Shown here: in pieces, positions 4,018-33,267 of the stretch
Layout of the letters: each line of letters begins with the position of its first letter
How positions within the stretch are numbered: the stretch's first letter is position 1
NCBI GenBank assembly: GCA_016210005.1
Contig: JACQVA010000100.1
Location: 1-35,317 of the forward strand
DNA from: Deltaproteobacteria bacterium
Lineage (GTDB): Bacteria; Desulfobacterota; Binatia; HRBIN30; JACQVA1
Direction of reading: 5' to 3'
DNA length: 35,317 nt
Made by a program: the position numbers and the translations under genes
The notes under the pieces: generated by a model
Databases searched by the model: none
What the model was told of the DNA's origin: nothing
The model's input: only the letters and a program-made list of their open reading frames with translations

Positions 4018-5217
4018 CTACAGTTCGGCCGCGGGCCGGCGGGCGGCTTGTAGTGCCGCGCGCCAAAAGCGCGGCTGCACCAGCATGCGCCAGAGCACGT
4101 CACCGCGCGCGAACGCTCCGCCCATGGTCGCACCGCGCCAGGTGCGCAACGCCTGCAACCGTTGTCCCGCGCCGGCTTGATGCAGGGTGCGCAGTAGTGC
4201 CCGCAAGGAGCCCCACTTGACGCACGCCGGGCTCTGGCTCGGCACCGGCTGGCCATTGCGCCCGATGGTCTCGCAGTACAGCAGGTACGGCAGGTTGACC
4301 CCGCAGCGTGCGGCCAGCTCGATCCACAGCCACGGGCGAGGATTGAAGTCGAGCAGCCTGAGTTGCCCGTCCGCGGCATCGTGCTTGAACTCGATGTCGG
4401 CCAAACCAACAAAGCCGGCGTGATCGACCAAGCGCCATGTCAGCGCCTCGACCGCGGGCAGCGGCACGCCCTCCACCACCGAGCCGTCGCCGAAGTCGTG
4501 CGGCACCTGCGCCAGCTTGCGAGCGGTAAACAGCGCCCGCGTGCCGTCGTGGCCGGCAAATACACCGGCGGTGACCAAGTCAGTCACGGCGCCGGCGATG
4601 GGCCGTTGCAGCAGCAGGGCGAACCCCAAGGCGTGAGCCCGGGTAACCACTTGCTGTGCCGCGGTGGCGTCGCGCACCAGCAAGGCCTTCGCGCCGAATT
4701 CCTCGCGAAACGAGCGCAGGCACGAGTTGCCCGTCCAGATCACTCGGTGTTCCGGCTTAAGCACCAATGGATAGGGTAGCCCGGCCGGCACTTCGTCGCC
4801 GTTGATCTCCCAGGTCTCCGGAGTCGGTACGCCGGCGGCAGCGGCCAGCTCGTACAGCCGTAGCTTCGACTGCAAGCCCGCCAGTTGTGCGGCCGCCGGG
4901 ATCGTCAGCCGATAATACGCGGCGAGTTCCTGGCGATGGCGGGCAACGGCCATGAGCGTTGATTCATCGGCCACGAACAGCACTGGCCGAGTCGCAAGCC
5001 CGCGCCCGATCGCGCTCAAGCCCTCGACGAACGCGCGTCCGGCTTCGGCCGGCGGGCAGGCCACGGCGCGGGAGTAGCGCGAGTACTGTGCCGGGCCCAA
5101 CGCGCTCGTCGCCGCCACCGTGCACGGCACACCGCGGGCGGCCAGACTGCGCACCAACCCCAACGCGGTAAGGTTGTCGGGAATGATCACCGCCGGCGAC
5201 AGCTGCTGGTCTTCCAC
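4018..5217 (-). CDS. ATP-grasp ligase-like protein, substrate unknown
   Basis: A 399-residue ATP-grasp protein; such enzymes join a carboxylate to an amine or similar nucleophile through an acyl-phosphate. The N-terminal Rossmann-like part (1-110) begins SPAVIIPDN. The ATP-grasp core has SKLRLYELAAAAGVPTP (about 117-133), LVLKP (Lys154) and metal-binding segments GLADIEFK (Glu276) and LLDFNPRPW (Asp290, Asn292). The start is GTG at 5217 with AGGAG 6 nt upstream. A TTG at 5319 overlapping the upstream stop as TTGA is possible, but its extra 34 residues look non-protein-like. It follows the PLP decarboxylase-like gene by about 100 bp on the same strand, suggesting a shared pathway in which one enzyme makes or modifies an amino acid or amine that the other ligates. 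Confidence 0.8.
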   Translation of the reverse strand: MEDQQLSPAVIIPDNLTALGLVRSLAARGVPCTVAATSALGPAQYSRYSRAVACPPAEAGRAFVEGLSAIGRGLATRPVLFVADESTLMAVARHRQELAAYYRLTIPAAAQLAGLQSKLRLYELAAAAGVPTPETWEINGDEVPAGLPYPLVLKPEHRVIWTGNSCLRSFREEFGAKALLVRDATAAQQVVTRAHALGFALLLQRPIAGAVTDLVTAGVFAGHDGTRALFTARKLAQVPHDFGDGSVVEGVPLPAVEALTWRLVDHAGFVGLADIEFKHDAADGQLRLLDFNPRPWLWIELAARCGVNLPYLLYCETIGRNGQPVPSQSPACVKWGSLRALLRTLHQAGAGQRLQALRTWRGATMGGAFARGDVLWRMLVQPRFWRAALQAARRPAAEL

Positions 5218-5315
5218 CGCCGCTCCTATCGGTCCTCGTAAGCGCAACAGACGTGGAACCACCGAGGCACAGAACACACCCGTCCTATCCGTGCTTTCGA
5301 TGACCTGTGCCAGGC

Positions 5316-6659
5316 TCAATACCCGCTGTGCCCGACGGGCAACTGGGTGTGCAACACGTCGGCAGCAGTTTCCGCGCGGCGGATCAGGTGCAGCTGGCCG
5401 TGCCGGTCAACGAAATAGACCGGCGCTCGCGGACGGGTGAACTGATTGGCGCGGGCAATCGAATAGGCCCCGGTATCCAAGATCGCCACCGTATCCCCGC
5501 ACTCAGGCGCCGGCGCCGGATGGTTGTAAAGCAACACGTCCTGCGCCGCCAAGGTTGGGCCGGCGAAATGCCACCTCCGCGTGGCCGCGGCGCCGGCGTG
5601 TGCCGGCAGCTTCAACCGCCATTCGGAAAAGGAGAGCTTCTCGGGCAGGTCGTTCAAACTCACATCGATGTAAACCCAGGGCGGCTTCACCACCCGCACC
5701 CGTCCCAGCATGAGCCCGGCTCCGGCCACCAAGGTCCGGCCCGGCTCCAGGGCCAGCACGGCCGGCAGCTGATGCTGGCGGCGCAAGGCGATGGCGTGCT
5801 CCGCCATGCGCTGCGCGAGGCTCAGGCTCGATTGCGCCCCCGCTTGCAACCACCCCAGCCGCTCCCACAGCGGCGCCAGACCGAAGCGGCGGGCCACGCG
5901 CAAGTTGACCATCGTGTCCGCCGGCAGGCCGCCACCGAGATTTATCTCCTCGATGTGAACGCCGCGCTGGCGCAGCCTGGCGGCGACGCCGAAGCATTCC
6001 TCCAGAGCCTGCAAGTAAGGCTCGGCATGCGTGACCTGCGAGCCCACATGGGTCATCAACCCCGCCCACTCGAGTTCGCCCGCGCGCCTGATCACTTCCG
6101 CCAGGCTCTCCACCTCGCTCAGCCGGAAACCGAACTTGTGCTCGTAAGATCGCAAGACTAGGTGGCGGGCGGCCGGCCGCCGCAGTGGTCCGATGCGTAC
6201 GCCGATGCGCACGCGGCGCCCGGCCCGCCGAGCGAGCCGGCCGACGGTGGCAATCTCAGCCTCGGACTCGACGTTGATTAGATGCACCCCGCCATCGATT
6301 GCCCGGGTCAGTTCCTGCTCGTCTTTCAACGGGCCGTCGACGATCACCCGCCGCCAGGGGAAGCCCGCGCGTTCGATCGCCAGCCGTTCAACGCTCCCGG
6401 AGATCTCGGCCCCGCAGCCGAGATCGCACAACGCTGCCAGTACGCCGGTCTCGAAATTCGATTTGACCGAGTAGTAGAGCCGCACCGGCTCAGCCGTGGC
6501 CAGCGCCGCTTGCAGCGCGGCGTAACCGTCGCGCAGTGTCTGCTCGAACAAGACGTATGCGGGGGTTCCGGTACGCTCGGCCAGACCGCACAGATCGGCG
6601 GCTTCAGGCGTGACGCCGCCAGGGGTGGGGCGGGCGGGGGAAGCGGCCGGGTCGAACAT
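5316..6659 (-). CDS. PLP-dependent decarboxylase-like protein (fold type III, DapDC/ODC family)
   Basis: This 447-residue protein belongs to the alanine-racemase-fold group that includes diaminopimelate and ornithine decarboxylases. PLP lysine is K66 in YYSVKSN; HVGSQ (204-208), NLGGGLP (240-246) and LEPGRTLVAGAG (304-315) are the usual cofactor-phosphate and substrate segments; GAYS (397-400) is the C-terminal signature. The usual CGPxCxSxD motif reads AGPTLAAQD (366-374), so the conserved catalytic cysteine is absent (about Leu370). Substrate is therefore not predictable and ordinary lysA function is unlikely. It sits between radC and the ATP-grasp gene on the same strand, with a 70-bp gap from radC. 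ATG at 6659 is the natural start. Family call strong, reaction unknown. Confidence 0.82.
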   Translation of the reverse strand: MFDPAASPARPTPGGVTPEAADLCGLAERTGTPAYVLFEQTLRDGYAALQAALATAEPVRLYYSVKSNFETGVLAALCDLGCGAEISGSVERLAIERAGFPWRRVIVDGPLKDEQELTRAIDGGVHLINVESEAEIATVGRLARRAGRRVRIGVRIGPLRRPAARHLVLRSYEHKFGFRLSEVESLAEVIRRAGELEWAGLMTHVGSQVTHAEPYLQALEECFGVAARLRQRGVHIEEINLGGGLPADTMVNLRVARRFGLAPLWERLGWLQAGAQSSLSLAQRMAEHAIALRRQHQLPAVLALEPGRTLVAGAGLMLGRVRVVKPPWVYIDVSLNDLPEKLSFSEWRLKLPAHAGAAATRRWHFAGPTLAAQDVLLYNHPAPAPECGDTVAILDTGAYSIARANQFTRPRAPVYFVDRHGQLHLIRRAETAADVLHTQLPVGHSGY

Positions 6660-7990: not shown

Positions 7991-10900
7991 CTAAGCGGTC
8001 TGTGCCAGCTTGGCGCTCTTGGCCTCCGCCCCCGGCACCGGCACGCCGAGATGGCGGCCCAAGGCCTGGACTAGTTGGCTCGCCGACATCGGCAGCTCGC
8101 GGGCCGCACGCAGCGCTTGCTGGCGGAAATCGGCCATGCTGGTGGCATCCGGCAGCAGCACGGCGATGGGCAGATCACGCAGCTTGGCGTCGGAGCGCAG
8201 CCGGCTGATCAGCCGTAGGCCCTCGCCGCGCGGCAGCGCGAAGTCCACCAACACCACGTCGGGCTTGATCATCGGCAGCAGATCGACGGCTTGGCGCACG
8301 TCGAAGGCCACCGAAGTCGAGCAGCGCACGCGCGCCAACACCTCGCGCAGCGCGCCGGTCATCTCGACGTTGTCACTGACGGCCAACAGCCGCTGCACCG
8401 CCCCGCGGCGCTCGAGCAAGCGGGTGACGCAGCTGTCGGGGTCGATCGGGGGAACGAAGAAATCGACCGGGCCGAAGGCAAAACCGCACGAGCCATCGGC
8501 ACAGTAGGCGAAGACGTCGCCGTATTCTTCATCAGCCGTCGCCTGGATGGCGGCGAGCGGATCCGGGGCGCGGTTGAGCAGGTTGACCGCCAGCATCTGA
8601 ACGCCGGGGCCGGCCGGGCGCTTGTTGTCCAAGGCGTTGAGGTAGTTGGACCCGGGCACGCGGGTGAGCACCTCACGCACCGAGTCGCGGAAGGCTTTGT
8701 TCTCTTCGAGATGGACGAAGGTAAGCGGGCCGGAGGTCGTGATCGGGCGCCGGGCCGCGCCGGCTGGTGCTGCCGCGGCTGCCGCCGCCGCTGCCGGCCG
8801 GGACGGTGCGCCGGGGCGTGGCGTCGCCGCCGGTGCCGCCGCAGCCGGCCGCGGCGCTGCCGCCGGCGCGCTCTCCTCCGCTTTCGGCCGCGGCGACCCC
8901 GCCGTCAGCGCGCGCAATTCCTGGAGCTGCTGTTCGATCTCGGCCCGTTCCACCCGCATCGCCGCCAGCTGCGCGATGGCGTCATCACACGCTTGGCGAG
9001 TAAGGCCGAGCTCATCGCTCAGCCGCTGCACTTCTTGCACGCGTGCTTGCAAGGCCTCGTTGCGCTGGTTCAGCTCCACCATGTAGCCGGCGACGGCTGC
9101 CGAATGCCGCTGTACGGCCTCGCCGTGTTGCCGTTCGATCTCGGCGATCTTTGTCTCCAGCCGGGTGATGTCGGCCTTCTGCTTGCGGGACTCGTCGCCC
9201 GCGGGGCGTGGCCGCCGCAGCCGTTCGCACTCGCGTTCGAGCTGGCCGGTCAGTGCGGTCATCTGATCCACACGCAACAGCAGGTCACGGCGCTCGCCAT
9301 CGAGCTCTGCGATCCGCCCCGCCATGGTCTCTTGTGCCTGGAGCGCACTGACGGTTTGCTCCTGGACGGTTTCGAGGTAATGCGTCAGTTCGGCGTTGCG
9401 GCGCTCGGCCGCTGCCAGCGCGGCACGGTACTGGCCGACCTCGCCTTCCGGAACGGTCGCCTGGAGCGCGCGCAACTCGGCCTGGATGGCTTCGATGGTG
9501 GCCGAGCGTTGCGCCGCATCGGCGCGAACCGCTTCCAATTCGCGTTGGAGCTGCAGTTGCGCGGCTTGCCAGGCGAGCTCGCCGCTACGCAAACCCGTGT
9601 GCGCCGCGCCGAGATCGGCCTCCAAGGTCCGCACCCGCTCGGCCAAGGCCACGGCTTGGGCGCGGGCGTCGTCCGCCCGCGCTTGCTCCGCCGCAAGTTG
9701 CCCTGCCATTTCTTCGCGCGCGGCCACCAGCTCCGCTTCGCGTTGGCCGGCGGCCTCGTCCCGCGACCCCTCGCCGGCACCGTTGCTCGCCGCGGCTTCG
9801 AGCTGGGCCACGCGTGCTTGCCGCACCCGCAGTTCCTCTTCCAGCGAGGCAATGCGATTCGAGAGCGAGGTCCTCACGGTGTCGCGCTCGGCCAACTGGG
9901 TTTCGAGGGCGCGCACCTGTACCCGCACGGCTTCCATCGCGATGCGGCGTTTCTCCAGCTCATCCCGCGCCGCTGCCAGCTCGGTTGCGAGCGCCGCCTG
10001 CGTTGCACCCAGGCTCTTTTCGCGCTCCTGCGCCAGCGCGGCCGCGGCTTGCAGCTGTTCATCGTAGCGCCGGCGCGCGCGCTCGCTCTCGGCACTCACG
10101 CTTTCCAAGGCTTCGGTGCGCTCGCCGAGGACAGCTTGCAGCTCGGTCAGCTGCCGGCTCAGCGCTTCGTTCTCGGCGGCCCGCGTGCTGAGCTGCTCCT
10201 CGAACGTCCGTTGCCTGACCTGCGCCACCTCCACGTTCACTTGGCCGGTGGCGAAATCGGCACGGATGCCATCGAGTTCGCGCTGTAGTTGCTCCTGGAC
10301 CGCGACCAGTTCGGCCTCGCGCTCGCGGGCCGTGCGGGTGGCTTCGGTCGCCGTTTGCAGCTCCGCGCTGTACCATTGCGAAAGGGCTTCAGCGTCGCGG
10401 TTGAGCTGCTTGATGACGTGCTCACGCTGGGCGCATTCCGCCTCCAGTTCCGCGACCCGAGCGCGCTCCGCCTCCGCCTCCGCCGCCCCCGCAGCGCGCA
10501 ACTCGGTGAGCGCCCGCTCCAGGTCGCCGCACTGGCGCACGCGTGCATCGCGGTCGGCTTCGATGGCCGCCAAACGGTCCACCAGCGCCGAGCGATCACC
10601 TTCCAGCGCTCCCTGCACTGCTTGCAGCGCCTGCCGGTGTTCATCCTCGCGTTGGCGGGCGGCGGCCTCGAAGAGCGCCCGTTCGCGTTCGCGCTCCTCG
10701 CGCAGCGCGCCCAGCTCCTGCTCGATCTCGGCGCGCAGCTGAGTGGCCGCCAGCAGCTCGGCTTCCAACCCGCGCAGGCGCTCGCCCAGTGTGGTGACTT
10801 CCTCGCGTGCCGTCAGGGCTTCCGACTGCGCCTCTTCGAGCTGGCGAGCGACCTCATCGCGGGCGGCCACCAATTCGGCTTCGCGCTGGCTGGCGGTCTC

Positions 10901-13042
10901 CTGCCAGGCGTTCAGCTCCGCCGTCTGGGCGGTAGCGGCCGCCGCCAGTTGCTCAGCCAGGCAGGCGCGCTGTTGTTGGGCCTCGGCCAGCTGTGCCTCA
11001 AGCGATTGCAAGCGCGCCGCGGCGTCACCCCGCGCCGCCGCTTGGGTGTGGTGCGACTCTTCCAGCGCGGTGTTCAGCTCCTGCTCGCGCTGGCGCAACG
11101 CGGCCAGCTGCGCCTCGAACTGCCGCGCCGCCTCGTCGCGCGCGGCCACCAACTCGGCCTCGCGTTGCGCCGCCGTCTCTTGCCAGCTGCTCAACTCGGC
11201 GGCCTGGGCCGCGCTGGTCTTTTCCAGCTGCTCCGCCGCCTGCGCCCGCCGGTGCTGTTCGGCCACTAGCTGTTCATTGAGCGAGTGCAGCTGCACCTGC
11301 GCCTCCGCCCGCGTCCGCTCGTGCGTTTCCCGCACCTCCGCCAGCACCGTGCTCAGCTCCTGCTCGCGAGCACGAAGTTCGTCGAGTTCAGCGTTGAGTT
11401 GCCGCGTCGCCTGGTTGTGGGCCGCAGCCAAGTCTGCCTCGCGCTGCGCCGCCGTTTCCTGCCAGCGCTTCGACTCGGCTGAGTGCGCCGCCGCGGCCGC
11501 CTCCATTTGCTGAGCTAACCCCGCGCTCTGCTGCCGCGCGGCGGCGAGTTGGTCGTTGAGCTGTTGCACCCGGGCTTGGCCGTCGGCCGAAGCCAGCGCC
11601 TGTGCTTGCTGCGCGGCCGCCAGCGCCGCGCTCAGTTCTTGCTCACGTTGCCTAAAGGCATCGACCTCGCCCGCCAGCTGCTTGACTACGGCGTCGCGCG
11701 CCGCCACCAGCTCGCCCTCGCGTTGCGCCGCGGTCTCTTGCCAGCCGCTCAACTCCGCCGCGTGCGCCGCGCGCTCCGCCTCCAGCTGCGCCAGCGCTTC
11801 GCCACGCTGTTGCTGTTCAGCGGCGCAAGCGGCGCTTGCACGCTCCAGCTGCTCTGCCAAGTCAGCGCGCTGTTGTGCTTGCACCGCCAGCTGTTCATTG
11901 AGCGCCTGCGCCTGTGCCTGTGCCTGCTCTCGTCCCTGGCGCAGTGCTGACAGGGCCGTGCTCAGCTCCTGCTCACGCTGTTGGAACGTCGCCGTTTCGC
12001 CGGCCAGTTGCTCGGCCAGGGCATCGCGCGCGGCCACTAGCTCGGCCTCGCGTTGCGCGGCCGTCTCTTGCCAAGCGCTCAGCTCAGCCGCGTGCTCTGC
12101 GCGCGCGCTCGCCAACTGCTCGGCGGCTTCGGCGCGTTGCTGCACTTCACCACTGAGCTGTTCGCTCAGCGCCAGCAGGCGCGCGGCGGTGTCCGCCTGC
12201 GCCTGTTCATGGGTCTGGCGCAACTCGTCGAGCGCGGCCGCGAGTCCTTGTTCGCGCGCGCACGCGGCGGCAAGGTCGCCATCGAGTTGCCCCAGCTGTT
12301 GCCGCAGCGCCTGTCGCGCCCCGGTCTCATCCGCCAATTGCTGGCGCGCCTGTGCGAGCGCTACCTGCATCTGGTCGCGGTCGGCATGCAGAATGCGCAA
12401 CGTTTCTTCCGCGCCGGCTTGTTGCGCCTGCAGCGCCGCCAGGGTCTGCTGCTGCTCACCCAGTTGCGCCGCCGCGGCCTCCGCCGAGCGTTCGCGCTCG
12501 GCCAACTGCTGCTGCACCTGGGCGACTTGGGCGGTCAGGGCCGCGACGGCAGCCGCGGCGGCGGCCTGCTCCTCCTGCTGCCGTTCGATCTCGGCGACAT
12601 GGATGGCGCTCTCGGTCTCCAGATCCGCGATGCGGCACTGCGCCGTCTCGAGGGCGGCGTTCAACTCGGCGTTGCTGCCCTGGAGTTGCTCGGCCGCGGT
12701 GCGTGTCTGTAGCAATATTTCCTGCCACTGCTCGGCCCGCCTAGCGGCGCTTTGGACCTCGCCTTCCGCGCGCGCACGCACGGCCTGCGCGCTTCGCTTC
12801 AATGCGTCAACCTGCGCCAACGCTTCGCGCAGGCGTGACTCGGTGAGTTGGCCCTTCTCGCGGCTGCCGCTCTCGGCGGCCTGCACCCGCCGAATCAAGG
12901 CGTCGCGCTCGCGGCGCAGCTCCTCGACGGTCGACTGCAGGCAAACCAGATCTTCGAGTGTCGGCGGCGTCTCGCTCGCAACGGAAGCCGGTTTCGCGCT
13001 CGGCAGTTCGGAATCGTCCTGATCGGTCATTACACGGTCCAC
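7991..13042 (-). CDS. Giant coiled-coil protein with C-terminal tandem pseudo-receivers
   Basis: A 1683-residue cytoplasmic protein (no signal or membrane segments) and the last gene of the chemosensory operon. Residues about 20-1380 are Ala/Glu/Gln/Leu/Arg-rich coiled coil. Within it a repeat centred on W-QETAAQREAEL recurs at Trp324, 434, 527, 620 and 713, the last four exactly 93 residues apart. An Ala/Pro linker (about 1385-1435) leads to a receiver-like domain (about 1438-1545) in which the phosphoacceptor strand reads AVNLLNR and the conserved KP is PP. A second receiver (about 1547-1665) keeps the acceptor Asp (LVDFALP) but lacks one acidic-pocket residue (AVSDN), the Thr/Ser and the Lys. 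AglZ and FrzS of Myxococcus pair a pseudo-receiver with coiled coil in the opposite order. It is probably a scaffold or polarity factor. GTG at 13042 directly follows the cheB stop; ATG at 13030, preceded by GAGTGGA, may be the real start. Confidence 0.85.
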   Translation of the reverse strand: MDRVMTDQDDSELPSAKPASVASETPPTLEDLVCLQSTVEELRRERDALIRRVQAAESGSREKGQLTESRLREALAQVDALKRSAQAVRARAEGEVQSAARRAEQWQEILLQTRTAAEQLQGSNAELNAALETAQCRIADLETESAIHVAEIERQQEEQAAAAAAVAALTAQVAQVQQQLAERERSAEAAAAQLGEQQQTLAALQAQQAGAEETLRILHADRDQMQVALAQARQQLADETGARQALRQQLGQLDGDLAAACAREQGLAAALDELRQTHEQAQADTAARLLALSEQLSGEVQQRAEAAEQLASARAEHAAELSAWQETAAQREAELVAARDALAEQLAGETATFQQREQELSTALSALRQGREQAQAQAQALNEQLAVQAQQRADLAEQLERASAACAAEQQQRGEALAQLEAERAAHAAELSGWQETAAQREGELVAARDAVVKQLAGEVDAFRQREQELSAALAAAQQAQALASADGQARVQQLNDQLAAARQQSAGLAQQMEAAAAAHSAESKRWQETAAQREADLAAAHNQATRQLNAELDELRAREQELSTVLAEVRETHERTRAEAQVQLHSLNEQLVAEQHRRAQAAEQLEKTSAAQAAELSSWQETAAQREAELVAARDEAARQFEAQLAALRQREQELNTALEESHHTQAAARGDAAARLQSLEAQLAEAQQQRACLAEQLAAAATAQTAELNAWQETASQREAELVAARDEVARQLEEAQSEALTAREEVTTLGERLRGLEAELLAATQLRAEIEQELGALREERERERALFEAAARQREDEHRQALQAVQGALEGDRSALVDRLAAIEADRDARVRQCGDLERALTELRAAGAAEAEAERARVAELEAECAQREHVIKQLNRDAEALSQWYSAELQTATEATRTAREREAELVAVQEQLQRELDGIRADFATGQVNVEVAQVRQRTFEEQLSTRAAENEALSRQLTELQAVLGERTEALESVSAESERARRRYDEQLQAAAALAQEREKSLGATQAALATELAAARDELEKRRIAMEAVRVQVRALETQLAERDTVRTSLSNRIASLEEELRVRQARVAQLEAAASNGAGEGSRDEAAGQREAELVAAREEMAGQLAAEQARADDARAQAVALAERVRTLEADLGAAHTGLRSGELAWQAAQLQLQRELEAVRADAAQRSATIEAIQAELRALQATVPEGEVGQYRAALAAAERRNAELTHYLETVQEQTVSALQAQETMAGRIAELDGERRDLLLRVDQMTALTGQLERECERLRRPRPAGDESRKQKADITRLETKIAEIERQHGEAVQRHSAAVAGYMVELNQRNEALQARVQEVQRLSDELGLTRQACDDAIAQLAAMRVERAEIEQQLQELRALTAGSPRPKAEESAPAAAPRPAAAAPAATPRPGAPSRPAAAAAAAAAPAGAARRPITTSGPLTFVHLEENKAFRDSVREVLTRVPGSNYLNALDNKRPAGPGVQMLAVNLLNRAPDPLAAIQATADEEYGDVFAYCADGSCGFAFGPVDFFVPPIDPDSCVTRLLERRGAVQRLLAVSDNVEMTGALREVLARVRCSTSVAFDVRQAVDLLPMIKPDVVLVDFALPRGEGLRLISRLRSDAKLRDLPIAVLLPDATSMADFRQQALRAARELPMSASQLVQALGRHLGVPVPGAEAKSAKLAQTA
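10870..12073 (-). repeat. Coding tandem repeat, 279-bp (93-residue) period
   Basis: Five related units lie inside the coiled-coil gene. Equivalent positions on the plus strand are 10870, 11149, 11428, 11707 and 12037, giving steps of 279, 279, 279 and 330 bp. The longer step carries a 17-residue insertion. Units encode WQETAAQREAELVAARD followed by a REQELxxAL element. Nucleotide similarity is high at the core and lower between units, so duplication is probably not very recent. Confidence 0.8.
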
Positions 13043-14248
13043 TCACACCGACGCCCGGCGGTCGTCGATGACCACGCACGATAATTCAGTCACCGGCGCG
13101 GCCGGCCGGCCGTCGACGCCGACGGCCGCGCACAGGTATTCGGCCAGGCGTGCCGGGGGAAACTGCAAGGCGGCGCAGCCCGCCTTCACCGCCGCCCCCG
13201 GCATGCCCCAAACCACCGAGCTAGGTTCGTCCTGCGCCAATGCGGCCGCGCCGTTGCTGCGCAAGGCTTTCATCCCCTCCACGCCGTCGTCGCCCATGCC
13301 GCTCAGCAGTACCGCTTGCACGCGGTGGGCGACGGCGCGCAGGCTGTCGAACAGTACATCGACGCTGGGGCGGTGCAGGTTGCGCCGGCCGCCGGCGTGC
13401 AGCTTGATGTGCTCGTCGGCGACCTCCATGTGCAGACCGCCGGGGGCAATGTAAGCAACCCCGGGCACCAACGGGTCGCCATGGCGCGCCTCGACCACGG
13501 TCAAGGCGCAGCGCTGGTCCAGGCAATGGGCCAAGTCGCTGGTGTAGCCCGGCGGCATGTGCTGGACGATCAATAGGCAGCCGCGAAATCCGAACGGGAT
13601 CGACGGCAGCATTTCCCCCAGCGCAGCCGGGCCGCCGGTCGAGGAGCCAATTGCCACGATCGGCAGCAGCTCCTTCTTGCCGGGCTTCTCTTTGCGCTCG
13701 ACGCGGGGCCGCTGCGGTTCGTGGGTGCTGCTCAACGGTGCCACCGCCGCCGGCCGCCGCATCATGCCGAAGGCAGCGCTGCGCACCACCCGCACGCGGG
13801 CGGCGGCTCGTACTTTGAAGCGAATCTCCTCCGCTTGCAGGTCCAAGTCCAAGCTGACACCGACTCGCGACGGTTTCTCCACGATCTCCACCGCACCGTA
13901 GGTCATCGCCTGAGCCGCCGCCTTGCCGCCGCGTTTGGTGTACGAGCTGATAATGACAATCGGGACCGGATGGCGCCCCATGATGACCTCGGTGGCACGC
14001 AGGCCGTCGACGTGCGGCATGTTCACGTCCATGGTGACGGCGTCCGGGCGCAGCCGTTGGGTCAGCTCGATCGCTTCGGCGCCGTCGCGCGCCGTTGCGA
14101 TGACTTCGATATCGCCTTCAGCTTGCAGGATGTGGGTAATCGTCCGGCGCATCATGCCGGAGTCGTCGGCCACCACCACGCGCAAGCGCCGCGCGCGTTC
14201 GGCCGTCCCATCGTCCTCAGCCAGAGCCCTCACCCCTGATGCCGGCAT
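13043..14248 (-). CDS. cheB: Chemotaxis methylesterase CheB (ChpB position)
   Basis: This 401-residue protein is a two-domain CheB that removes methyl groups from (and deamidates) the MCP for adaptation. The receiver domain (about 22-135) has acidic pair Asp28/Asp29, acceptor Asp74 (TMDVNMP) and KP at 125-126. After a basic linker the methylesterase domain (about 195-385) has the triad Ser203 (GSSTGGP), His230 (VQHMPPGY) and Asp321 (GMGDDG). The start ATG at 14248 is 26 bp after cheA; the stop abuts the GTG of the coiled-coil gene, so translation is probably coupled. An extra 20-residue N-terminus before the receiver is somewhat longer than usual. Confidence 0.95.
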   Translation of the reverse strand: MPASGVRALAEDDGTAERARRLRVVVADDSGMMRRTITHILQAEGDIEVIATARDGAEAIELTQRLRPDAVTMDVNMPHVDGLRATEVIMGRHPVPIVIISSYTKRGGKAAAQAMTYGAVEIVEKPSRVGVSLDLDLQAEEIRFKVRAAARVRVVRSAAFGMMRRPAAVAPLSSTHEPQRPRVERKEKPGKKELLPIVAIGSSTGGPAALGEMLPSIPFGFRGCLLIVQHMPPGYTSDLAHCLDQRCALTVVEARHGDPLVPGVAYIAPGGLHMEVADEHIKLHAGGRRNLHRPSVDVLFDSLRAVAHRVQAVLLSGMGDDGVEGMKALRSNGAAALAQDEPSSVVWGMPGAAVKAGCAALQFPPARLAEYLCAAVGVDGRPAAPVTELSCVVIDDRRASV

Positions 14249-14274: not shown

Positions 14275-17200
14275 CTAATCCGCCACCGCAGGAGCGCCGG
14301 GGTCAGGCGCGGGGCTGCCCTGTGTGAGTCGTTCGATCTCGATCAGCAGCTGTTCCTTGGTGAACGGTTTGGTGATGTAGCCTTGTGCGCCCGCCTCGCG
14401 CGCGCGGCGCCGGTGCTTGTCACTCGAGCGCGAGCTACAGACGATCACGGGCAACTCCTGGAAGCGCGGATGGCGGCGAATTTCGGTGATCAACTCGTAG
14501 CCGTGCATGCGCGGCATCTCGAGGTCGGTCACTACTAGGCGGAAGCGGCCGCTGGCGAGCTTCTCCAGGGCGTCGAGCCCATCGACGGCGGTGTCGACTT
14601 CGAGGCCGGCGCTTTCGAGAAAGCGCGCCGCCAGCTTGCGCACGCTGATCGAGTCGTCGACCACCAAGATGGAACGAGCCTCGACCGGGGCCTGGTCGGA
14701 GGCCTCGGCCATGATGAAGGTGGCCTGGCGATCGGCCACTGAGGCCAGCACGTCGAAGAGCCGGCCGACGTGGAGTACGAAGATCACGGCGCCGGCGCCG
14801 GAAATCGTTGCCCCCGACAGGAACGGATGGGCCTCGAGCACGCGCCCGAGCGGTCGGATCACCACTTCCTGCTGCGCCTGGACGCGATCGACGATCAACG
14901 CCATGGCGCGATCACCGGCGCGCAGGACTACAGCGACGGCGGCAGTGGCGGGAACGTTCTCGCCTACCAGCGGTGCCATCAGCAACACCGGCAGCAGCTC
15001 GTTGCGCACCTTCAGCATGCGCTGGCCGTCGACCAACACGAGGTCACTCATGTCGATGGCGATTACCTGCTCGACGAAATCGACCGGCAAGCCGTACACC
15101 TGCGGTCCGCTCTCCAGCAGCAGCACTTCGTCGATCGAGGTGGTGGTCGGCAGCGCGACGCGGATCGTGGTACCCTGGAGGTCCTTCGAATCCACCAACA
15201 GGCTGCCGTTGAGCGCGGCAATCTCACGCGCGACCACGTCCATACCCACACCGCGCCCCGAGATGTCGGTCACCGTCGCCCCGGTACTGAAGCCGGCGCG
15301 GAAGATCAGCGGCAGCAGCTGCTCGCGGTTGGGGCTGACGTAGGGTTCAATCAGCCCGAGCGCGCGCCCGCGGGCGAGAACCGCCTCGAAATCGATACCA
15401 CCGCCGTCGTCGTGTACCGCCAGCAGGACGCTGTTGTGGCGCTGGCTGGCTACCAGCCGGATCTCGCCGACCGTCCGTTTACCCCGCTTCTGCCGCATCA
15501 CCGGTGACTCGATACCGTGGGAGACGGCATTGCGGACCATGTGCAGCAGGGGGGCGTAGAGCGACTCGACGATGGACTTGTCGAGTTGCACGTCGGAGCC
15601 CTCGAAATGCAGATCGACCAGTTTCCCCTCTTGCCGGGCGGCATCGCGCACCGGTCGCAGCAGCCGGCGGAACAGGGTGTCGAGCGGCACCAGGCGCAAG
15701 CGAGTGATTTGGCGCTGCAGGCCGGAGGTGATCTTGGAGAACTGGCGTGCTTCTTCACCGAAGGCATCGATGAAGGTACCGAGCTGGTCGGCGATCTCGC
15801 CGGTGTCGGTGGCCAACTCGATCACGCTGCGGGCGAGGATGTTGAAGTCGTCGTATTTGTCGAACTCGAGGTCGGTGAAGAAATCATCTTCCGGCGTCGC
15901 CCGGCCGCCCTCGCTATCGCTGCCGGCCGCGCGCGCGGCCAGAGCGACCGGGCGGTCGCCGGTATTGAATTCGTAGCGCTCCTGAAAGCCTTCGATGATC
16001 TCCGCCAAGCGCGTGCGCGAATAATAGAGCTTCTCGCGCAATTCACCGAAGGCCTGGATCTTACGGTCCATGCGGGTGCGGCTGACCACCAGCTGGCCGA
16101 CTTGGTTCATCAAGGCATCGAGGCGGGCGGCCTGTACGCGTACGATATTGGTTTCGGCGTCCGAGGCGCGCGCCGCCAGGGCTTCGGAGAGCGCCGGGGC
16201 TTCGGGCTCACCCGCCGGCAACAGCGCCGGTTCCAACGCTTCCGCGCCGGCCGCGGCCGGCGTCGCGGTGGTCAGGGCGGCGACTTCCGCGGCCACGTCG
16301 CTGATTACGGCACGCTGCTCATCGTGCACGCCGCGGCTGCGGTTGATCAGTTCGGTGACCGAGTCGGTCAGCCGGAACAGGAAATCGACCAAGCGGGCGG
16401 CATCGACCGCCAGCTCGCCGTCAAGCACGGCGTCAAGCAGAGATTCACCATGATGGAGCTGGCCGGACACGCTTTCGAGGCCAACGGCTGCGGCGGCGCC
16501 CTTGAGCGTGTGGAAGTGGCGGAACAGCGCCTGGAGCAGCGTGCGATCATCGGGCTGATGTTCCAGATCCAGCAGTAGTTGTTCGCAAGCCTCGATGGCC
16601 TCGGTGGCGTCGATGGTAAAGGCGTCGAGCAACTCGCGCTCGAGTGCGACGCCCGCGGCATCGGCGGCTGCCGGCAGCGGCACCACCGGCGCCGGCAGCT
16701 CCGGTGCCTGCTGGTTGGCGGCAGCGAACAGCCGGCCCATCGCCGCTTGTGCGTTGGCGAGGAACTCGGCCGACAGCGGAATCAGCTCGGGCTGTTCCGC
16801 GGCAGCGCCGAAGCCGTCTTGGAGCTGTTTGGCGATCTTCGAGAGGTCTTCCAAGCCCACCATCGCCGCGGAGCCTTTGATGGTGTGAAAGATCCGCGAC
16901 AGCTGGTGGCAGGCCGCCGACTGGGTCTCCGCCGCCGCCAGGCGCGCTACCAGCTCCGGTACCCGTTCGAGGTACGATTCGAGCTCGGCCGCGAAAACCT
17001 CCGCCAGCTCTTTGGCCCAGGCCTCATCGGCTTCCGCATCGCCATCGCCGGGGCCGGCCGCCTCGGCGGCATCGTCCGTCGCGCTCTCGCCCGGCGGTAC
17101 CTGCGACAGGGACTCCTCGGCCGCTTCGGTCTTGCCGGCGGCAAAGACGTCCACCTCGTGCAGGTAGCTACGCACCCGCGGTGAGAATCCCATCACCATT

Positions 17201-17574
17201 TCGGTGTAGAGGTTTTCTTGCGTCTCGGGGTTGGCGCCGGCGAGGCAATCGTCGAGCAAGGGTTCGATGAGCGCAAGCGCGTCCTGCATTTGGCGAAAGA
17301 TCGCGAGCGCTTCGCCGACATCGCTGTTGAGGTAGGTGCTGGCCACCTCGGCCACGCGGTCGACCACGGCCCCGACTCGGCTGAGGTAGGTCAACCCCAC
17401 CAGTGAGGCGGTGCCTTTGAGCGAATGCCCAAGTGCGCGCAGCTCATCGAGCGCGACTGAGTCGTTCGGGTTACTGAGCAATTGCGCCAGCCGCTCGCGC
17501 ATGCCTTGGGCGAAGCGCCGCACGTCATCGCGGAACAGGTCCTTGATCGAGTCGATGGTAAAGCGGTCGGCCAT
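14275..17574 (-). CDS. cheA: Hybrid CheA kinase with three HPt domains and C-terminal receiver
   Basis: A 1099-residue histidine kinase, the centre of the chemosensory pathway. Three HPt domains carry phosphorylatable His50 (HSLKG), His230 (HTIKGSA) and His355 (HTLKGAA). Dimerisation helices (about 475-625) are followed by the ATPase domain with N-box Asn682 (MVRNAVSHGIE), G1 DDGGGID and G2 GRGVGMD. Then come a CheW-like domain (about 812-945) and a receiver (about 968-1085) with Asp973/974, acceptor Asp1017 (VTDLEMP) and Lys in ITKPF. All catalytic motifs are intact. Multiple HPt domains plus a terminal receiver are the hallmark of ChpA/PilL-type kinases that control type IV pili. A short acidic stretch (about 555-575) breaks the dimerisation region. 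Its ATG overlaps the cheR stop by one base (TAATG). Confidence 0.95.
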   Translation of the reverse strand: MADRFTIDSIKDLFRDDVRRFAQGMRERLAQLLSNPNDSVALDELRALGHSLKGTASLVGLTYLSRVGAVVDRVAEVASTYLNSDVGEALAIFRQMQDALALIEPLLDDCLAGANPETQENLYTEMVMGFSPRVRSYLHEVDVFAAGKTEAAEESLSQVPPGESATDDAAEAAGPGDGDAEADEAWAKELAEVFAAELESYLERVPELVARLAAAETQSAACHQLSRIFHTIKGSAAMVGLEDLSKIAKQLQDGFGAAAEQPELIPLSAEFLANAQAAMGRLFAAANQQAPELPAPVVPLPAAADAAGVALERELLDAFTIDATEAIEACEQLLLDLEHQPDDRTLLQALFRHFHTLKGAAAAVGLESVSGQLHHGESLLDAVLDGELAVDAARLVDFLFRLTDSVTELINRSRGVHDEQRAVISDVAAEVAALTTATPAAAGAEALEPALLPAGEPEAPALSEALAARASDAETNIVRVQAARLDALMNQVGQLVVSRTRMDRKIQAFGELREKLYYSRTRLAEIIEGFQERYEFNTGDRPVALAARAAGSDSEGGRATPEDDFFTDLEFDKYDDFNILARSVIELATDTGEIADQLGTFIDAFGEEARQFSKITSGLQRQITRLRLVPLDTLFRRLLRPVRDAARQEGKLVDLHFEGSDVQLDKSIVESLYAPLLHMVRNAVSHGIESPVMRQKRGKRTVGEIRLVASQRHNSVLLAVHDDGGGIDFEAVLARGRALGLIEPYVSPNREQLLPLIFRAGFSTGATVTDISGRGVGMDVVAREIAALNGSLLVDSKDLQGTTIRVALPTTTSIDEVLLLESGPQVYGLPVDFVEQVIAIDMSDLVLVDGQRMLKVRNELLPVLLMAPLVGENVPATAAVAVVLRAGDRAMALIVDRVQAQQEVVIRPLGRVLEAHPFLSGATISGAGAVIFVLHVGRLFDVLASVADRQATFIMAEASDQAPVEARSILVVDDSISVRKLAARFLESAGLEVDTAVDGLDALEKLASGRFRLVVTDLEMPRMHGYELITEIRRHPRFQELPVIVCSSRSSDKHRRRAREAGAQGYITKPFTKEQLLIEIERLTQGSPAPDPGAPAVAD

Positions 17575-18488
17575 TAGCGTACGCTCCTGGTTCCGCTGGC
17601 GGCCAAGCGGTTCGAGCCGGGGAGTTCGGCACCCAGCCCGAAGTTGGCGGCCGGCCGCACGATGCGGCGAAAGATGACCGTGCCGTTAGTGCGAATGGGC
17701 TCGAGGATATCGCGGTAGGCTTGCAGGGAATCGGCGAAGCCGGCGACGAAGAAGCCGCCGCGCCGCAGCGCCGCCACCAAGTTGCGCACCACGCCATCGC
17801 GCTGGGTGCCCTGGAAGTAGATCAGCACGTTGCGGCAGAAGATGACGTCGACCTGGGTGATCGGCAGGGCATCGGCGAGGTTGCAGCGCAGCCAGCGCAC
17901 CGCCCGCCGCAGTTCGGGGCTGACCTCGTAGTGCTGGCCGGCCGGGCGGAAGTAGCGCTCGCGCCGCCAGGACTCGAGCATGGCGACATCGCGAGCGGGG
18001 TAGAGTCCGCGCGCCGCTTTGTCGATAGCCTCGCCGCTGACGTCCAAACCGACCAGCTCGACTTCGAGTTCTTCGAGCAAGGGCCGTGACTCTTCGGCGA
18101 TCATGGCCATCGAGTAGGCCTCTTGTCCGGTCGAGCAGCCGGCGCTGACCAAGCGCACCCGCCGCCGGCCGTCACGAAGTGTTTCACGCACCAGCTGGGG
18201 GAAGATGAAGCGCGCCAGGGCATGGAAATGCGCCAGGTCGCGCAAGAAGCTGGTCTCGTGAATGCACAATCGTTCGATCAGTGTCTGCAGCTCGCCGCCG
18301 CCGGCGGGGCTTTCCTGCACCAGGCGGGCGTAGTCGCCGAAACCGATCCGCAACTCGCGCAGGCGCGCGGCCACCTGATTGTTCAGGTATGACTCGTGTG
18401 GCCCGCCCAGGTACAGGCCGCAGCGAGCCGCCACGGTGTCACGCACCCAGGCCACCTGCCACTCCGGAAGTTCAAGGGTGCGTGTCAT
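17574..18488 (-). CDS. cheR: MCP methyltransferase CheR (PilK position)
   Basis: A SAM-dependent glutamate methyltransferase of 304 residues acting on the adjacent MCP. The N-terminal helical domain (1-80) includes HETSFLRD, the family NETxFFRD signature. The methyltransferase domain has SAGCSTGQEAYSMAM (SAM loop), LVGLDVS and DVIFCRNVLIYF. No C-terminal pentapeptide-binding TPR region is present. The ATG at 18488 is chosen over a GTG at 18494; both sit in the same GTGGCCATG context, and AGGTGG lies just before the ATG. The gene lies 30 bp after the MCP gene and overlaps cheA by one base. Confidence 0.93.
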   Translation of the reverse strand: MTRTLELPEWQVAWVRDTVAARCGLYLGGPHESYLNNQVAARLRELRIGFGDYARLVQESPAGGGELQTLIERLCIHETSFLRDLAHFHALARFIFPQLVRETLRDGRRRVRLVSAGCSTGQEAYSMAMIAEESRPLLEELEVELVGLDVSGEAIDKAARGLYPARDVAMLESWRRERYFRPAGQHYEVSPELRRAVRWLRCNLADALPITQVDVIFCRNVLIYFQGTQRDGVVRNLVAALRRGGFFVAGFADSLQAYRDILEPIRTNGTVIFRRIVRPAANFGLGAELPGSNRLAASGTRSVR

Positions 18489-18518
18489 GGCCACCTACGC
18501 GGGAGCACGGCGCCGGCG

Positions 18519-21128
18519 TCAAATCGTAGTCTGCCCGTTACCCGGCCGCTGCGCCGGTTCCTGCTCCAGCGGTATCAGTTGTGCCGCGGAGGCCTCGGCC
18601 TTGCCATTGCCGACGGCTTCGACGCGGAAGAGGCCGATCTGCTGGTTCAGCTCGCTCGACACTTGGATCAGCGCGGCGGTGCTGTGCTGGGTTTGTTCCG
18701 AGGACACCTGCGCCTGGCGGGCGACATCGGAAATACTGAGCATGGCTTCGCTCAGGCTGGTCGCGCCGCGCACCTGTTGGTTGGCGGCGAGCGAGATCTC
18801 AGCGATCAGCTCGGCGCTTTGGACCGAGGCGCGCAGGATGCGTTCGAGCGCGTTGCCGGCTTCGGTGACCATGCCGGTCTGCTGTTCCACGTGTTCGGAC
18901 TGCCGCTCCATGCCGCCGACCGATTCGTTGGTTTCGGCCTGGATCGCCGCGATCAGGCGGGCGATTTCCTCGGCGGCGCCTTCGGTACGTTCGGCGAGTT
19001 TACGCACTTCGTCGGCGACGACGGTGAAGCCCAGGCCGTGTTCGCCGGCACGCGCGGCCTCGATGGCGGCGTTGAGGGCGAGCATGTTGGTTTGCGCCGA
19101 GATTTTTTGGATGGTGTTGATGATGGTGGAGATTTCCATCGAGCGTTCGCCCAGCCGTTTGATCTTCACGGCCGAAGCGCGGGTATTCTTCTGCAGCGCG
19201 TCCATGCCGGTGATCACGCGTTTGACGACGTCGCCGCCTTGGTGGGCGGCTTCCTCGGCGCGTTTGGCGGCTTCGGCGGCGACGGTGGCGTTCTCCGACA
19301 CCGACTGGATGTTCGAGGTCATCTCCTGCACTGCGGCGGTGGTGCTGGTGATGTCGCTGGTTTGCCGCGACGACCCTTGCGCCAGCTGTTCGGCGGAGGC
19401 CTGAATCTGAGTGGCGGAGCTGACCACGCGCGCCGACACGCTCTTGAGGTGTTTGACCAGTTCGCCGACGTTCTCGAACATCAGGTTCAAGGCGTCGGCG
19501 AGGTTGCCGAGCACGCCGCTGCCGACTTCGGCGCGGGCGGTCAGATCGCCTTCGGAGGCGCCGGCCACCACCGTGAGCAGGTGGCGAATCTCGTTCTGCA
19601 AGCGGCGGTTGTCTTCTTCGGCTTGCACCAGCGAATCGACCCGTTCATCGAGCATCTGGTTGAAGCCGCGGGCGAGGACGCCGAGTTCGTTGCGAGCTTT
19701 GACCTTGACGCGGGCGCGGAAGTTGCCCTCTTGAATCTCACGCATGGTGCCCGCCAGGGCGCGCACCGGGCTGGAGATGCGCGAGGCCAGCAGCAGCGCC
19801 ACCAAGACGAAGCCGCCGATGAGGCCGCCGCCGAGGGTCGCCGTCAAGTTGCGCAAGCGGATGACGGGCCGCATGGCTTCCTCTTCGGCAATCTCGGCGA
19901 TGATCAGCCAGTTCAAGCCGCGCAAGCCATCGAGCCAGGTCGAGGCGCCGAGCACCGACACATTGCGGTAGTTGAGGTAGCTCAGAGCCACCACCGCTTC
20001 GCTCTCCTCGGTGCGCGGCGGTGGATATTCATGGGCGTCGGCACCTTGAATAGCGCCTTCGGATTCGACTTTCTGGCCTAGAATAGTGGTGCCGCTCAAT
20101 GCGATCTCAGGGTTGTTCTCCTTCAGTTGGTCGAGAAAGCGTGAGTCGTTACGCATGAAGAAGTCGTTGGCATTGCGGCCGATGAGGTAGACCTCGCCGG
20201 TCTCGCCCAGTCCGACCGCTTCCCACTGCTTGTCGGAGGTCATGATGTTGTTGATGCGATCGATCGGCACCTGCACGATCAACATGCCGATCTTCTGGCC
20301 GTTTTCGAAGATGCCGGCACCGGCGAACAGCAACGGCTTGCCGTGGGCGGGCAGGTAGGGGGCGAAATCCATCAGCAGGTAGTCGCCTTCGCGCGACTCG
20401 ATTTGCAGCCGGCGGAAGAGTTTGCCGATGCTGGAGTTAGCATACGGGCCGTCGAGCAGGCTGGTTTGGAACTCGGGGCCCTTGCCCACGCTGTAGGTAA
20501 TGCGCCCGTTGTTGGCGTCGACCAGGTAGAGATCCTGGAAACCGAATTTCTCCACCATGCCGCGAAAGACCGGCTGCCAGACGGCGTGATACGAGCCGTA
20601 GCGGCTGCCGTCGCTGGGGTCGCTGAGCAGGTACTTCTTGCCTAGCGGGTTCGGGTTCATGGCCATGTAGGTGGCTTGCAGCCAGACGGCGGAGCGCTGG
20701 GGCAGCAGGAGCGAGCGCAGATCGAGCTTCTTATCCGCGAGTTCCTTCTTGTAGTAGGTTTCGACGAACTTCTTGAGAGCACCCATGCGCTCGCGCATGT
20801 TCTCGGTGGCGGTGATCGGGTCGTCGTCGAGTTCGCGCGTGGCATTGCCGAATTGCTTGGCCGCCAGCAGCGTGGCGGGGTTGCGCGCGACGGTGACGAC
20901 CTGGTCTTCGACCAGCTGGAAGTGGCGCTCGATTTCGCGCTTCTTCCCGTCGCGCACCGATTGCAGTTGGCGCAACGCCTGTTCGCGCATTGATTCGGAC
21001 GCGACCTGATAGCTGCGCCAGCCCAGGAAGGTCATCGCGGCGACGGCTAGCGGCACGAAGGCCAGCAGCACTTGCCAGCGGATCGCCAGGCGGAAGCCTC
21101 GGTCGGCGGTTGCATTTTTGGCGGCCAT
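18519..21128 (-). CDS. Methyl-accepting chemotaxis protein, large periplasmic sensor, two HAMP domains (PilJ position)
   Basis: An 869-residue transmembrane receptor. TM1 is about 18-37. A periplasmic region of nearly 400 residues (38-430), with features of a double-Cache-type sensor (FQDLYLVDANNGRITYSVGKG; GEVYLIGRNAND), is followed by TM2 at about 432-449. HAMP1 is about 449-501 (ending LARGFNQMLDERV) and a second HAMP-like unit about 514-565 (SEGDLTARAEV...LADALNLMF). The signalling domain has the highly conserved hairpin tip SAQTNMLALNAAIEAARAGE (677-696) and VADEVRKLAERT. P. aeruginosa PilJ occupies the same operon position but has a different sensor, so the stimulus here is probably different. 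GGAGGGG precedes the ATG. Confidence 0.93.
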   Translation of the reverse strand: MAAKNATADRGFRLAIRWQVLLAFVPLAVAAMTFLGWRSYQVASESMREQALRQLQSVRDGKKREIERHFQLVEDQVVTVARNPATLLAAKQFGNATRELDDDPITATENMRERMGALKKFVETYYKKELADKKLDLRSLLLPQRSAVWLQATYMAMNPNPLGKKYLLSDPSDGSRYGSYHAVWQPVFRGMVEKFGFQDLYLVDANNGRITYSVGKGPEFQTSLLDGPYANSSIGKLFRRLQIESREGDYLLMDFAPYLPAHGKPLLFAGAGIFENGQKIGMLIVQVPIDRINNIMTSDKQWEAVGLGETGEVYLIGRNANDFFMRNDSRFLDQLKENNPEIALSGTTILGQKVESEGAIQGADAHEYPPPRTEESEAVVALSYLNYRNVSVLGASTWLDGLRGLNWLIIAEIAEEEAMRPVIRLRNLTATLGGGLIGGFVLVALLLASRISSPVRALAGTMREIQEGNFRARVKVKARNELGVLARGFNQMLDERVDSLVQAEEDNRRLQNEIRHLLTVVAGASEGDLTARAEVGSGVLGNLADALNLMFENVGELVKHLKSVSARVVSSATQIQASAEQLAQGSSRQTSDITSTTAAVQEMTSNIQSVSENATVAAEAAKRAEEAAHQGGDVVKRVITGMDALQKNTRASAVKIKRLGERSMEISTIINTIQKISAQTNMLALNAAIEAARAGEHGLGFTVVADEVRKLAERTEGAAEEIARLIAAIQAETNESVGGMERQSEHVEQQTGMVTEAGNALERILRASVQSAELIAEISLAANQQVRGATSLSEAMLSISDVARQAQVSSEQTQHSTAALIQVSSELNQQIGLFRVEAVGNGKAEASAAQLIPLEQEPAQRPGNGQTTI

Positions 21129-21140
21129 GATAGACCCCTC

Positions 21141-21707
21141 CTATTTGTTACTCAGCGGCACAGCGCGGCCGATTGGCGCCGCTTCATCGGCGCGGCCCGG
21201 CAGGCGCTGTTGAAAGCGCGCACTCACGACGTTGACGGCTTCGGCAACCAATTTGTCGGCATCGAGCACGGTTACCACCCCGGTTGCAGCCGGCCAGTAT
21301 CTGCGGGAGAGCGGATTAGCCGCCGGCCCGCTGGGATAATCTTGCATCTCACCGGCATCGATCGAGCGCACATCGCGAACCCGATCGACGGCCAAGCCGA
21401 TGTCCACCTCGCCGCAGGTGAGCACCAAAATCTGATCGCCCGGCGTGTAGGGCCGGGCGGGCATATCGAGCAGACTATCGAGCTGCACCAGCGGCAGCAC
21501 CTCTCCGCGCAGGTTGATCACCCCGATCAGCGAGGGCGGCGCCTGCGGCACGGGGGTGGCCGGCTCGCCGGTGAGCACCTCGCGCGCGGCGGTCACGCTG
21601 ATGGCGTAGTCGCGCCCGGAGCGAGTGAAAATGCAATAGTCCTCGCCCAGGTGAGCCAGCCGCGCGCTCAGCCGGGTGGCGAGATCGAAGTGGGCCTCAG
21701 TGCTCAC
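21141..21707 (-). CDS. cheW: CheW adaptor (PilI position)
   Basis: A 188-residue CheW that couples the MCP to the kinase. The domain (about 22-165) shows the usual pattern: YCIFTRSGRDYAISVTAAREVL, PSLIGVINLRGEVLPLVQL, and LVLTCGEVDIGLAVDRVRDV. Additional residues at both ends are hydrophilic. The start codon is GTG, overlapping the stop of the upstream PilH-like gene as GTGA, which indicates translational coupling. Stop is 12 bp before the MCP start region. Closest functional equivalent by synteny is PilI. Confidence 0.92.
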   Translation of the reverse strand: MSTEAHFDLATRLSARLAHLGEDYCIFTRSGRDYAISVTAAREVLTGEPATPVPQAPPSLIGVINLRGEVLPLVQLDSLLDMPARPYTPGDQILVLTCGEVDIGLAVDRVRDVRSIDAGEMQDYPSGPAANPLSRRYWPAATGVVTVLDADKLVAEAVNVVSARFQQRLPGRADEAAPIGRAVPLSNK

Positions 21708-22063
21708 GCGTACCTCTTCACGATCGACACCAGATCCGAGGGGCTGAAGGGCTTGGCCAGATAGTCGATCGCACCCTGCTTCTGGCCCCAGAAGCGGTCG
21801 CTCTCGCCGTTCTTCGAGCTCACCATAACCACCGGGATATCCTTGGTCAGCGTGTCACGTTTGAGCTGGCGGCAGGTGGCGAAGCCGTCCTGGCCGGGCA
21901 TGACGATGTCGAGCAAGATGATATCCGGTCGATCCGCGCGCGCGCGCTCCATCGCCTCGACTCCAGTGCTGGCCTGGATGCAATCGTAGCCTTGCGGCGA
22001 GAGCACGTTGGCGATCAACTGCACTTCGCTGCGAATGTCGTCGACAATGAGAACCTTTGGCAT
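21704..22063 (-). CDS. pilH: Single-domain response regulator, PilH type
   Basis: A 119-residue CheY-like receiver with Asp8/Asp9, acceptor Asp52 (LLDIVMPG), Ser in VMVSSKN and Lys in LAKPF: all phosphorylation residues are present. The segment SDRFWGQKQGAIDYLAKPF closely matches the TDKVWGKRQGARDYLTKP region of Pseudomonas PilH, more than enteric CheY, supporting a type IV pilus output or phosphate-sink role. It overlaps the following cheW by 4 bp. Function by synteny is inference. Confidence 0.9.
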   Translation of the reverse strand: MPKVLIVDDIRSEVQLIANVLSPQGYDCIQASTGVEAMERARADRPDIILLDIVMPGQDGFATCRQLKRDTLTKDIPVVMVSSKNGESDRFWGQKQGAIDYLAKPFSPSDLVSIVKRYA

Positions 22064-26875: not shown

Positions 26876-26947
26876 AGCCCCTCCTCTCGCTCGCGGGTGG
26901 GTTCCCTAGCCCATGCGCTGCGTCAATGCCAACCGCCGCGCGGCGGC

Positions 26948-29068: not shown

Positions 29069-29340
29069 CTGCGCCCCTCCTGCGCGCGGCAGACACTGCA
29101 ATCGCCGTGCTAGACGCGCAGTAGCGCTTCAACCCGCCATAGGTCAAGTCCGGCGCCCGGGTGCCCGACGCATGTTGGACGACTCGTCAACTGAGTAGCG
29201 CAATTTTGTGCGCGCTCCAGGGCTTCAAAACCGCCGCCGTCCGGACTATCGTGCTGGCATGGCCTCTGCTTCGTAATGTGCGGAACTTCGGCTCCGGTCG
29301 ATGTTGACCGCAGAGATGTCGGCCGAAGAAAGGGTGCTAC
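29069..29340. other. Divergent 272-bp region between DUF1329 paralogues
   Basis: No gene seen. It must carry promoters for both divergent genes. A sigma-54-like site lies on the plus strand at 29255-29270; for the minus-strand gene only a weak TTGACC-type -35 (near 29155) without a good -10 was found. Confidence 0.5.
29255..29270 (+). promoter_or_regulatory. Candidate sigma-54 promoter of DUF1329 paralogue 2
   Basis: TGGCATGGCCTCTGCT matches the TGGCAC-N5-TTGC plan with GG at -24 and GC at -12 in the correct 10-bp gap. The predicted transcript would start near 29281, giving a leader of about 60 nt with AAAGGG before the ATG. No activator site was identified. Confidence 0.4.
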
Positions 29341-33198: not shown

Positions 33199-33267
33199 CC
33201 CGGCCGCGAGCGATCTGCGGCGGCGGCCACCCGATTGCGGTTGAACTCTACCCCGAAAGGGCACGCC

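Follow-up and report, generated by a model that had tools for sequence, protein, structure and literature searches.

A giant coiled-coil protein with a paired receiver-like head is a candidate for an undescribed scaffold of Pil-Chp-like sensory systems in Binatia

How a chemosensory array tells type IV pili where to extend is understood only in part, and the known links, FimV/FimL and FrzS/SgmX, come from two lineages. We analyzed a 35,317-nt stretch of DNA (the window; assembly GCA_016210005.1, contig JACQVA010000100.1) from Deltaproteobacteria bacterium (Binatia; HRBIN30; JACQVA1), an uncultured lineage, in which a chemosensory operon is followed by a gene for a giant coiled-coil protein. 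The question raised by this locus is what such a protein does beside a chemosensory kinase. Our tentative answer, with a rough probability of 45%, is that the giant would be a FrzS-like docking scaffold of a Pil-Chp-like system, acting independently of phosphorylation. The recurrence of the gene in related genomes, judged from sequence, points to a scaffold so far undescribed in such systems.

The operon and the gene that closes it

All genes of the operon are located on the minus strand. In transcription order, they encode a CheW fused to a DUF4388/PATAN-type domain (23576-24586), a response regulator with a long conserved C-terminal extension at the pilG position (22094-23509), a CheY-like single-domain response regulator at the pilH position (21704-22063), a CheW at the pilI position (21141-21707), an MCP with a dCache-like sensor (below the Pfam cut-off), HAMP and signalling domain at the pilJ position (18519-21128), a CheR methyltransferase at the pilK position (17574-18494), a ChpA-like CheA with three Hpt stretches and a C-terminal receiver (14275-17574), a CheB methylesterase with a receiver at the chpB position (13043-14248) and, directly after cheB, the giant (7991-13042). 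The gene order and the multi-Hpt CheA with its receiver mark the operon as Pil-Chp-like and putatively of the Tfp class; it has the Pil-Chp order with one extra gene at each end. The first-pass annotation had placed the giant at the close of a Pil-Chp-type operon, in agreement with this arrangement.

The extension of the pilG-position regulator is conserved and has no Pfam match, and its end reads like a receiver lacking the Asp. A PATAN-like C-terminus was considered for this regulator and dropped, as it does not match the domain of the CheW-DUF4388 protein. The CheW-DUF4388 gene opens the operon, and its homologues are found in the same place at four other loci (L043-L045, L049). We take DUF4388 to correspond to the PATAN domain. 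PATAN domains are found in cyanobacterial regulators, one of which, PixE, was reported to bind PilB1 (PMC7690835), in keeping with a pilus output. The CheW-DUF4388 protein may connect the array with PilB directly.

The region upstream of the operon (24875-31317) contains one gene of DUF1302 type and two of DUF1329/LolA-like type, one of them on the opposite strand. A 987-codon open frame (25682-28645, plus strand) runs antisense to the DUF1302/DUF1329 genes, and its codon-position composition suggests a shadow ORF. Elsewhere in the window, a gene with a weak ATP-grasp match adjoins a gene for a PLP-dependent Orn/Arg-type decarboxylase (4018-6659, minus strand), and a Macro-domain protein is encoded at 33235-33807 (plus strand).

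The giant ORF (7991-13042, minus strand) encodes 1683 aa from a GTG start, exactly the length and position first noted. The ATG four codons in, at 13030, would give 1679 aa and is probably the true start, because the orthologues start close to the matching site. The codon-position GC of the ORF (0.81/0.49/0.81) is the same as that of the neighbouring genes, and the orthologues align to it in frame. A genome of another genus of the same family (G001, locus L039) encodes a protein of 1501 aa that shares the layout of the giant and is 73-74% identical to it over the last 250 residues. Codon usage and orthologues thus exclude a chance ORF or the shadow of a 665-aa plus-strand ORF, and the giant is a real, conserved gene. 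No Pfam or NCBIfam model spans the whole protein, and a limited search of the open-access literature turned up no chemosensory operon described as encoding a coiled coil that ends in tandem receivers, consistent with the earlier impression that this part of the system is undescribed. A contig-collection search with the giant alone as the query returned no match, and with the alignment as the query two MAG contigs were matched.

Coiled coil and receiver-like head

The protein begins with a conserved N-terminal coil part (residues 1-180; 12503-13042), which has 37-49% identity to other-family orthologues. The coil middle (residues 181-1200; 9443-12502) is fast-evolving, length-variable and Ala-rich, and the conserved coil end (residues 1201-1380; 8903-9442) has 33-55% identity to other-family orthologues. 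A Pro/Ala-rich linker (residues 1381-1433; 8744-8902) leads to the C-terminal head, composed of a divergent aspartate-less receiver-like domain 1 (8402-8740) and a pseudo-receiver domain 2 with part of the C-terminal tail (8006-8401).

The coiled coil is well supported: residues 28-1197 contain no proline, and heptad periodicity (autocorrelation versus shuffles) reaches z = 16.5 over residues 28-1380, 3.1-6.3 in every 140-aa piece of the coil and 14.7-17.8 in seven relatives. We found no DNA tandem repeat in the gene that could produce this pattern as an artefact. An SMC-like protein was rejected, since the NCBIfam SMC matches reach 62.8 bits against a cut-off of 567 and are due to the coil only, and so was a transmembrane anchor, as no 19-residue window exceeds 1.43 on the Kyte-Doolittle scale.

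The coil ends are conserved between families, while the middle differs in both length and sequence, as would be the case for a spacer that binds through its two ends. The first-pass estimate of roughly 200 nm is arithmetically right for a fully extended coil; the coils of the orthologues are shorter, about 880-1,190 residues versus about 1,350 in the giant, and the coil is thus no strict ruler. The great length of the coil and its near lack of prolines would also suit a coiled-coil-rich cytoskeletal protein, whose filaments or matrix would position the array or other machinery, with the receiver pair capping them or regulating their assembly. Such a role agrees with the unlinked paralogues in the same class that are also giants with coil and pair, but the poorly conserved middle would be unusual for a filament that packs laterally, and we regard filament formation as quite improbable.

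The head was modelled by AlphaFold2 from a 17-sequence alignment as two alpha/beta domains (mean pLDDT 91), and a Foldseek search with this model of the pair gave the FrzS receiver among its top matches. Domain 2 belongs to the receiver (Response_reg) superfamily: it is matched by Pfam Response_reg at residues 1553-1645 (E = 3.6e-9, above the gathering score), aligns with receivers by hhalign (E 5e-19) and has clear structural matches to receivers (VIA Z about 11), including PleD, DivK and the FrzS receiver.

Domain 1 (about residues 1434-1547) has no Pfam match, and domain 2 is the one receiver that Pfam finds in the giant. Compared end to end with canonical receivers of the same operons, domain 1 gave an hhalign score of 26.6 (E = 4.6e-4), whereas 100 column shuffles scored no higher than 16.6. 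Folded alone, it reached a pLDDT of 85.5. Its model resembles receivers weakly (VIA Z up to 7.7, in a list that is mostly receivers and leaves other families compatible; Foldseek E no better than 0.04), and its second half is modelled as a beta-hairpin at the place of helix 4 and strand 5. We conclude that domain 1 is probably a strongly remodelled, divergent relative of receivers, a relationship that is favoured, not proven. hhalign gave no support for homology of domain 1 to domain 2 (E 0.2).

The conserved residues of the two domains differ from those of a working receiver. In domain 1, the acidic residue at the end of strand 1 and an Asn at the end of strand 3 are present in 17/17 sequences; that the Asn occupies the phospho-Asp position is a structural assignment, because hhalign puts it one position off. 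In domain 2, the phospho-Asp is kept in all 17 aligned sequences, other residues take the place of the conserved Thr and Lys, and most of the acidic pair is gone, its first position being Ser, Thr or Gly. Unlike the head, the CheY and the pilG-position receiver of the operon have the canonical residues. A pseudo-receiver is defined as lacking at least one of five conserved residues (DD, D, T, K) (PMC12632262), and by this definition domain 2 is a pseudo-receiver through the loss of T, K and most of the acidic pair, and domain 1, as a probable receiver, would be one through its Asn at D. The first-pass description of two degenerate receivers therefore holds for the presence of two receiver-derived domains, one with a clear receiver fold and the other so divergent that only profile comparison shows the relation, its structural matches being weak; it goes too far for the kept phospho-Asp of domain 2.

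Domain 2 may accordingly be not fully dead, as its invariant phospho-Asp could mean that phosphorylation still matters. The ChpA-like kinase would then phosphorylate domain 2 slowly, making it a phosphate sink or a low-efficiency switch that the coil only concentrates at the array. The several Hpt domains of the kinase and the proposal that pseudo-receivers may serve as less efficient response regulators (PMC12632262) agree with this output, as does the invariance of the Asp in the 17 homologues. However, domain 2 has other residues in place of the helpers Thr and Lys and lacks most of the acidic pair, and the operon already encodes at least four receivers, with the catalytic residues intact in the CheY and at the pilG position, making a phosphate-handling role unlikely.

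Distribution and linkage to chemosensory genes

A profile of the receiver-like pair detected it in 38 of the 148 genomes of the class at E <= 1e-18. In an even draw of 395 genomes across the phylum, only class members reached this threshold; two genomes outside the class scored about 1e-16, with the second domain alone. Six genomes from two families (the window, L039, L042-L045) have a giant with coil and pair as the next gene after cheA or cheB, and in nine further genomes pair genes are located within about 6.2 kb of cheA. In two genomes (L048 and L049), two different coil-plus-pair genes stand in tandem after a different, Frz-like che cluster. Two different genes of this type are also found in tandem at L047, where the locus ends at a contig edge. 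Seven genomes of one family (f9; L052-L055, L093, L095, L096) have a shorter pair protein, which gave a GAF match in both cases examined; its gene is transcribed divergently from an adjacent regulator-(CheW)-MCP-CheA operon. Another four contigs with the pair are too short for judging the neighbourhood.

The expectation that homologues lie in chemosensory operons is borne out by these loci, but not by all relatives. A 1608-aa relative (L046, G007) has no che genes nearby, and short zinc-ribbon or plain relatives at L038, L040 and L041 lie outside chemosensory operons. In the 431-aa paralogue from the giant's own genome (L038:9428-10723), the same pair is preceded by a double zinc ribbon and a short stretch that resembles a coil. 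In a more distant set of 16 loci, CheA is absent from the vicinity; coil-plus-pair giants of this unlinked kind in the same class have about 860-1,950 aa. These paralogues show that the receiver-like pair is not exclusive to chemosensory systems. At least 5 of the 16 distant loci (L057, L098, L102, L104, L106) have an unlinked giant adjoining a conserved ORF of ~500 aa, which is a Mur ligase in both cases tested (L057, in the giant's own genome, and L098); a weak GAF match was detected in one of two such giants tested.

Pair and CheA distances correlate across 11 loci (r = 0.82, reached in 0 of 2000 permutations), where common ancestry alone would give some correlation. This co-divergence, together with the position directly after cheA or cheB, could reflect binding of the pair to the neighbouring kinase, at its Hpt or CheW domains. 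The giant would then tune or cluster arrays and replace the second linker, ChpC, which is encoded after chpB in Pil-Chp operons. The operon, however, already contains a second CheW, fused to the PATAN-type domain, and the giant itself has no CheW-like part, so that we give little credence to a role as a kinase adaptor.

Pilus output and comparison with known systems

The genome carries a pilB-pilT-pilC cluster and several PilT-family ATPases, with PilB and PilT family proteins exceeding the NCBI cut-offs, and a genome search did not find FliG, so a flagellar output was rejected. The presence of PilB, PilC and PilT without FliG makes type IV pili the likely target, and the operon, as predicted from gene content, most likely controls them. 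A second, different che cluster is located on contig C116. No Roadblock domain was detected in the genome, so an MglB-type circuit was rejected, and the myxobacterial MglA-SgmX circuit cannot simply be transferred to this organism.

We propose that the giant is a dedicated, probably dimeric coiled-coil scaffold of the chemosensory system, in which the long coil would serve as anchor and spacer. The conserved N-terminal coil end would bind one site (array, pole or envelope complex), the middle would supply only length, and the conserved C-terminal coil end would present the paired head. The head may dock a partner, for instance a regulator of PilB, the operon's response regulators or the kinase, and would not be switched in the usual way by aspartyl phosphorylation. 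The gene, its coil and paired domains, the residue losses, the recurring cheA linkage and the pili without flagella are the observed part of this picture. The docking scaffold is supported by the loss of key catalytic residues in both domains across the 17 homologues while the operon's CheY and pilG-position receiver keep theirs, by the architecture, the codon usage and the confident pair model with its FrzS match, by the cheA/cheB linkage and the pair/CheA correlation (r = 0.82), and by the conserved coil ends with their variable middle, PilB and PilT without FliG, and the FrzS precedent. The invariant phospho-Asp of domain 2, the lack of detected Roadblock/MglB, the unlinked paralogues and the G007 relative away from che genes argue against it.

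A broader and doubtful extension of the docking scaffold is that the Binatia have their own family of giant tethers, many-hundred-residue coils with the same two-domain head, of which one branch would physically bridge the roughly 100-200 nm between the array and the pilus machine and the other would serve unrelated sites. If true, this tether would be a previously unseen way for an array to be wired to an output. One half of the paired head has an invariant Asn and the other an invariant Asp that has lost its helpers, so that the head provides a defined family for asking what pseudo-receivers bind.

Among known systems, the Pil-Chp system of Pseudomonas aeruginosa shares the gene order of the Binatia operon, an order which we take to be regulator, regulator, CheW, MCP, CheR, multi-Hpt CheA with receiver and CheB. 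The Binatia operon differs by the extra CheW-PATAN gene in front, the giant after cheB and fewer detectable Hpt domains. The FimV/FimL hub of the Pseudomonas system is a polar hub linking Chp to pili, the same scaffold role as proposed for the giant, and the domains of FimV presumably differ from those of the giant. AglZ of Myxococcus xanthus has an atypical receiver and a domain structure similar to FrzS (PMC1974792); it is reported for gliding (A) motility, has the FrzS-like order and is likened to the giant by description, not by sequence.

FrzS of M. xanthus also combines a pseudo-receiver with an extended coiled coil, and together with a chemosensory system it acts on type IV pili; its pseudo-receiver binds SgmX, a pilus activator, and its coil suffices for polar localisation (PMC11580455, PMC12632262, PMC1974792). 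FrzS was named earlier, together with AglZ, as the closest functional parallel, with its parts in the opposite order, and both the domain order and the FrzS receiver among the top Foldseek matches agree with this. FrzS has one N-terminal pseudo-receiver without the Asp and a coil of 258 residues, whereas the giant has the reverse order, with two domains at the C-terminus, of which the second has the Asp, and its coil is about five times as long. The FrzS family is defined by an N-terminal aspartate-less pseudo-receiver followed by a coiled coil, so the giant, by analogy, may work like FrzS and is not a member of its family. Taken together, a third, structurally different scaffold, conserved beside cheA in a class without cultured members, would represent a solution independent of FimV/FimL and FrzS/SgmX, and would test whether pseudo-receivers generally act as docking heads.
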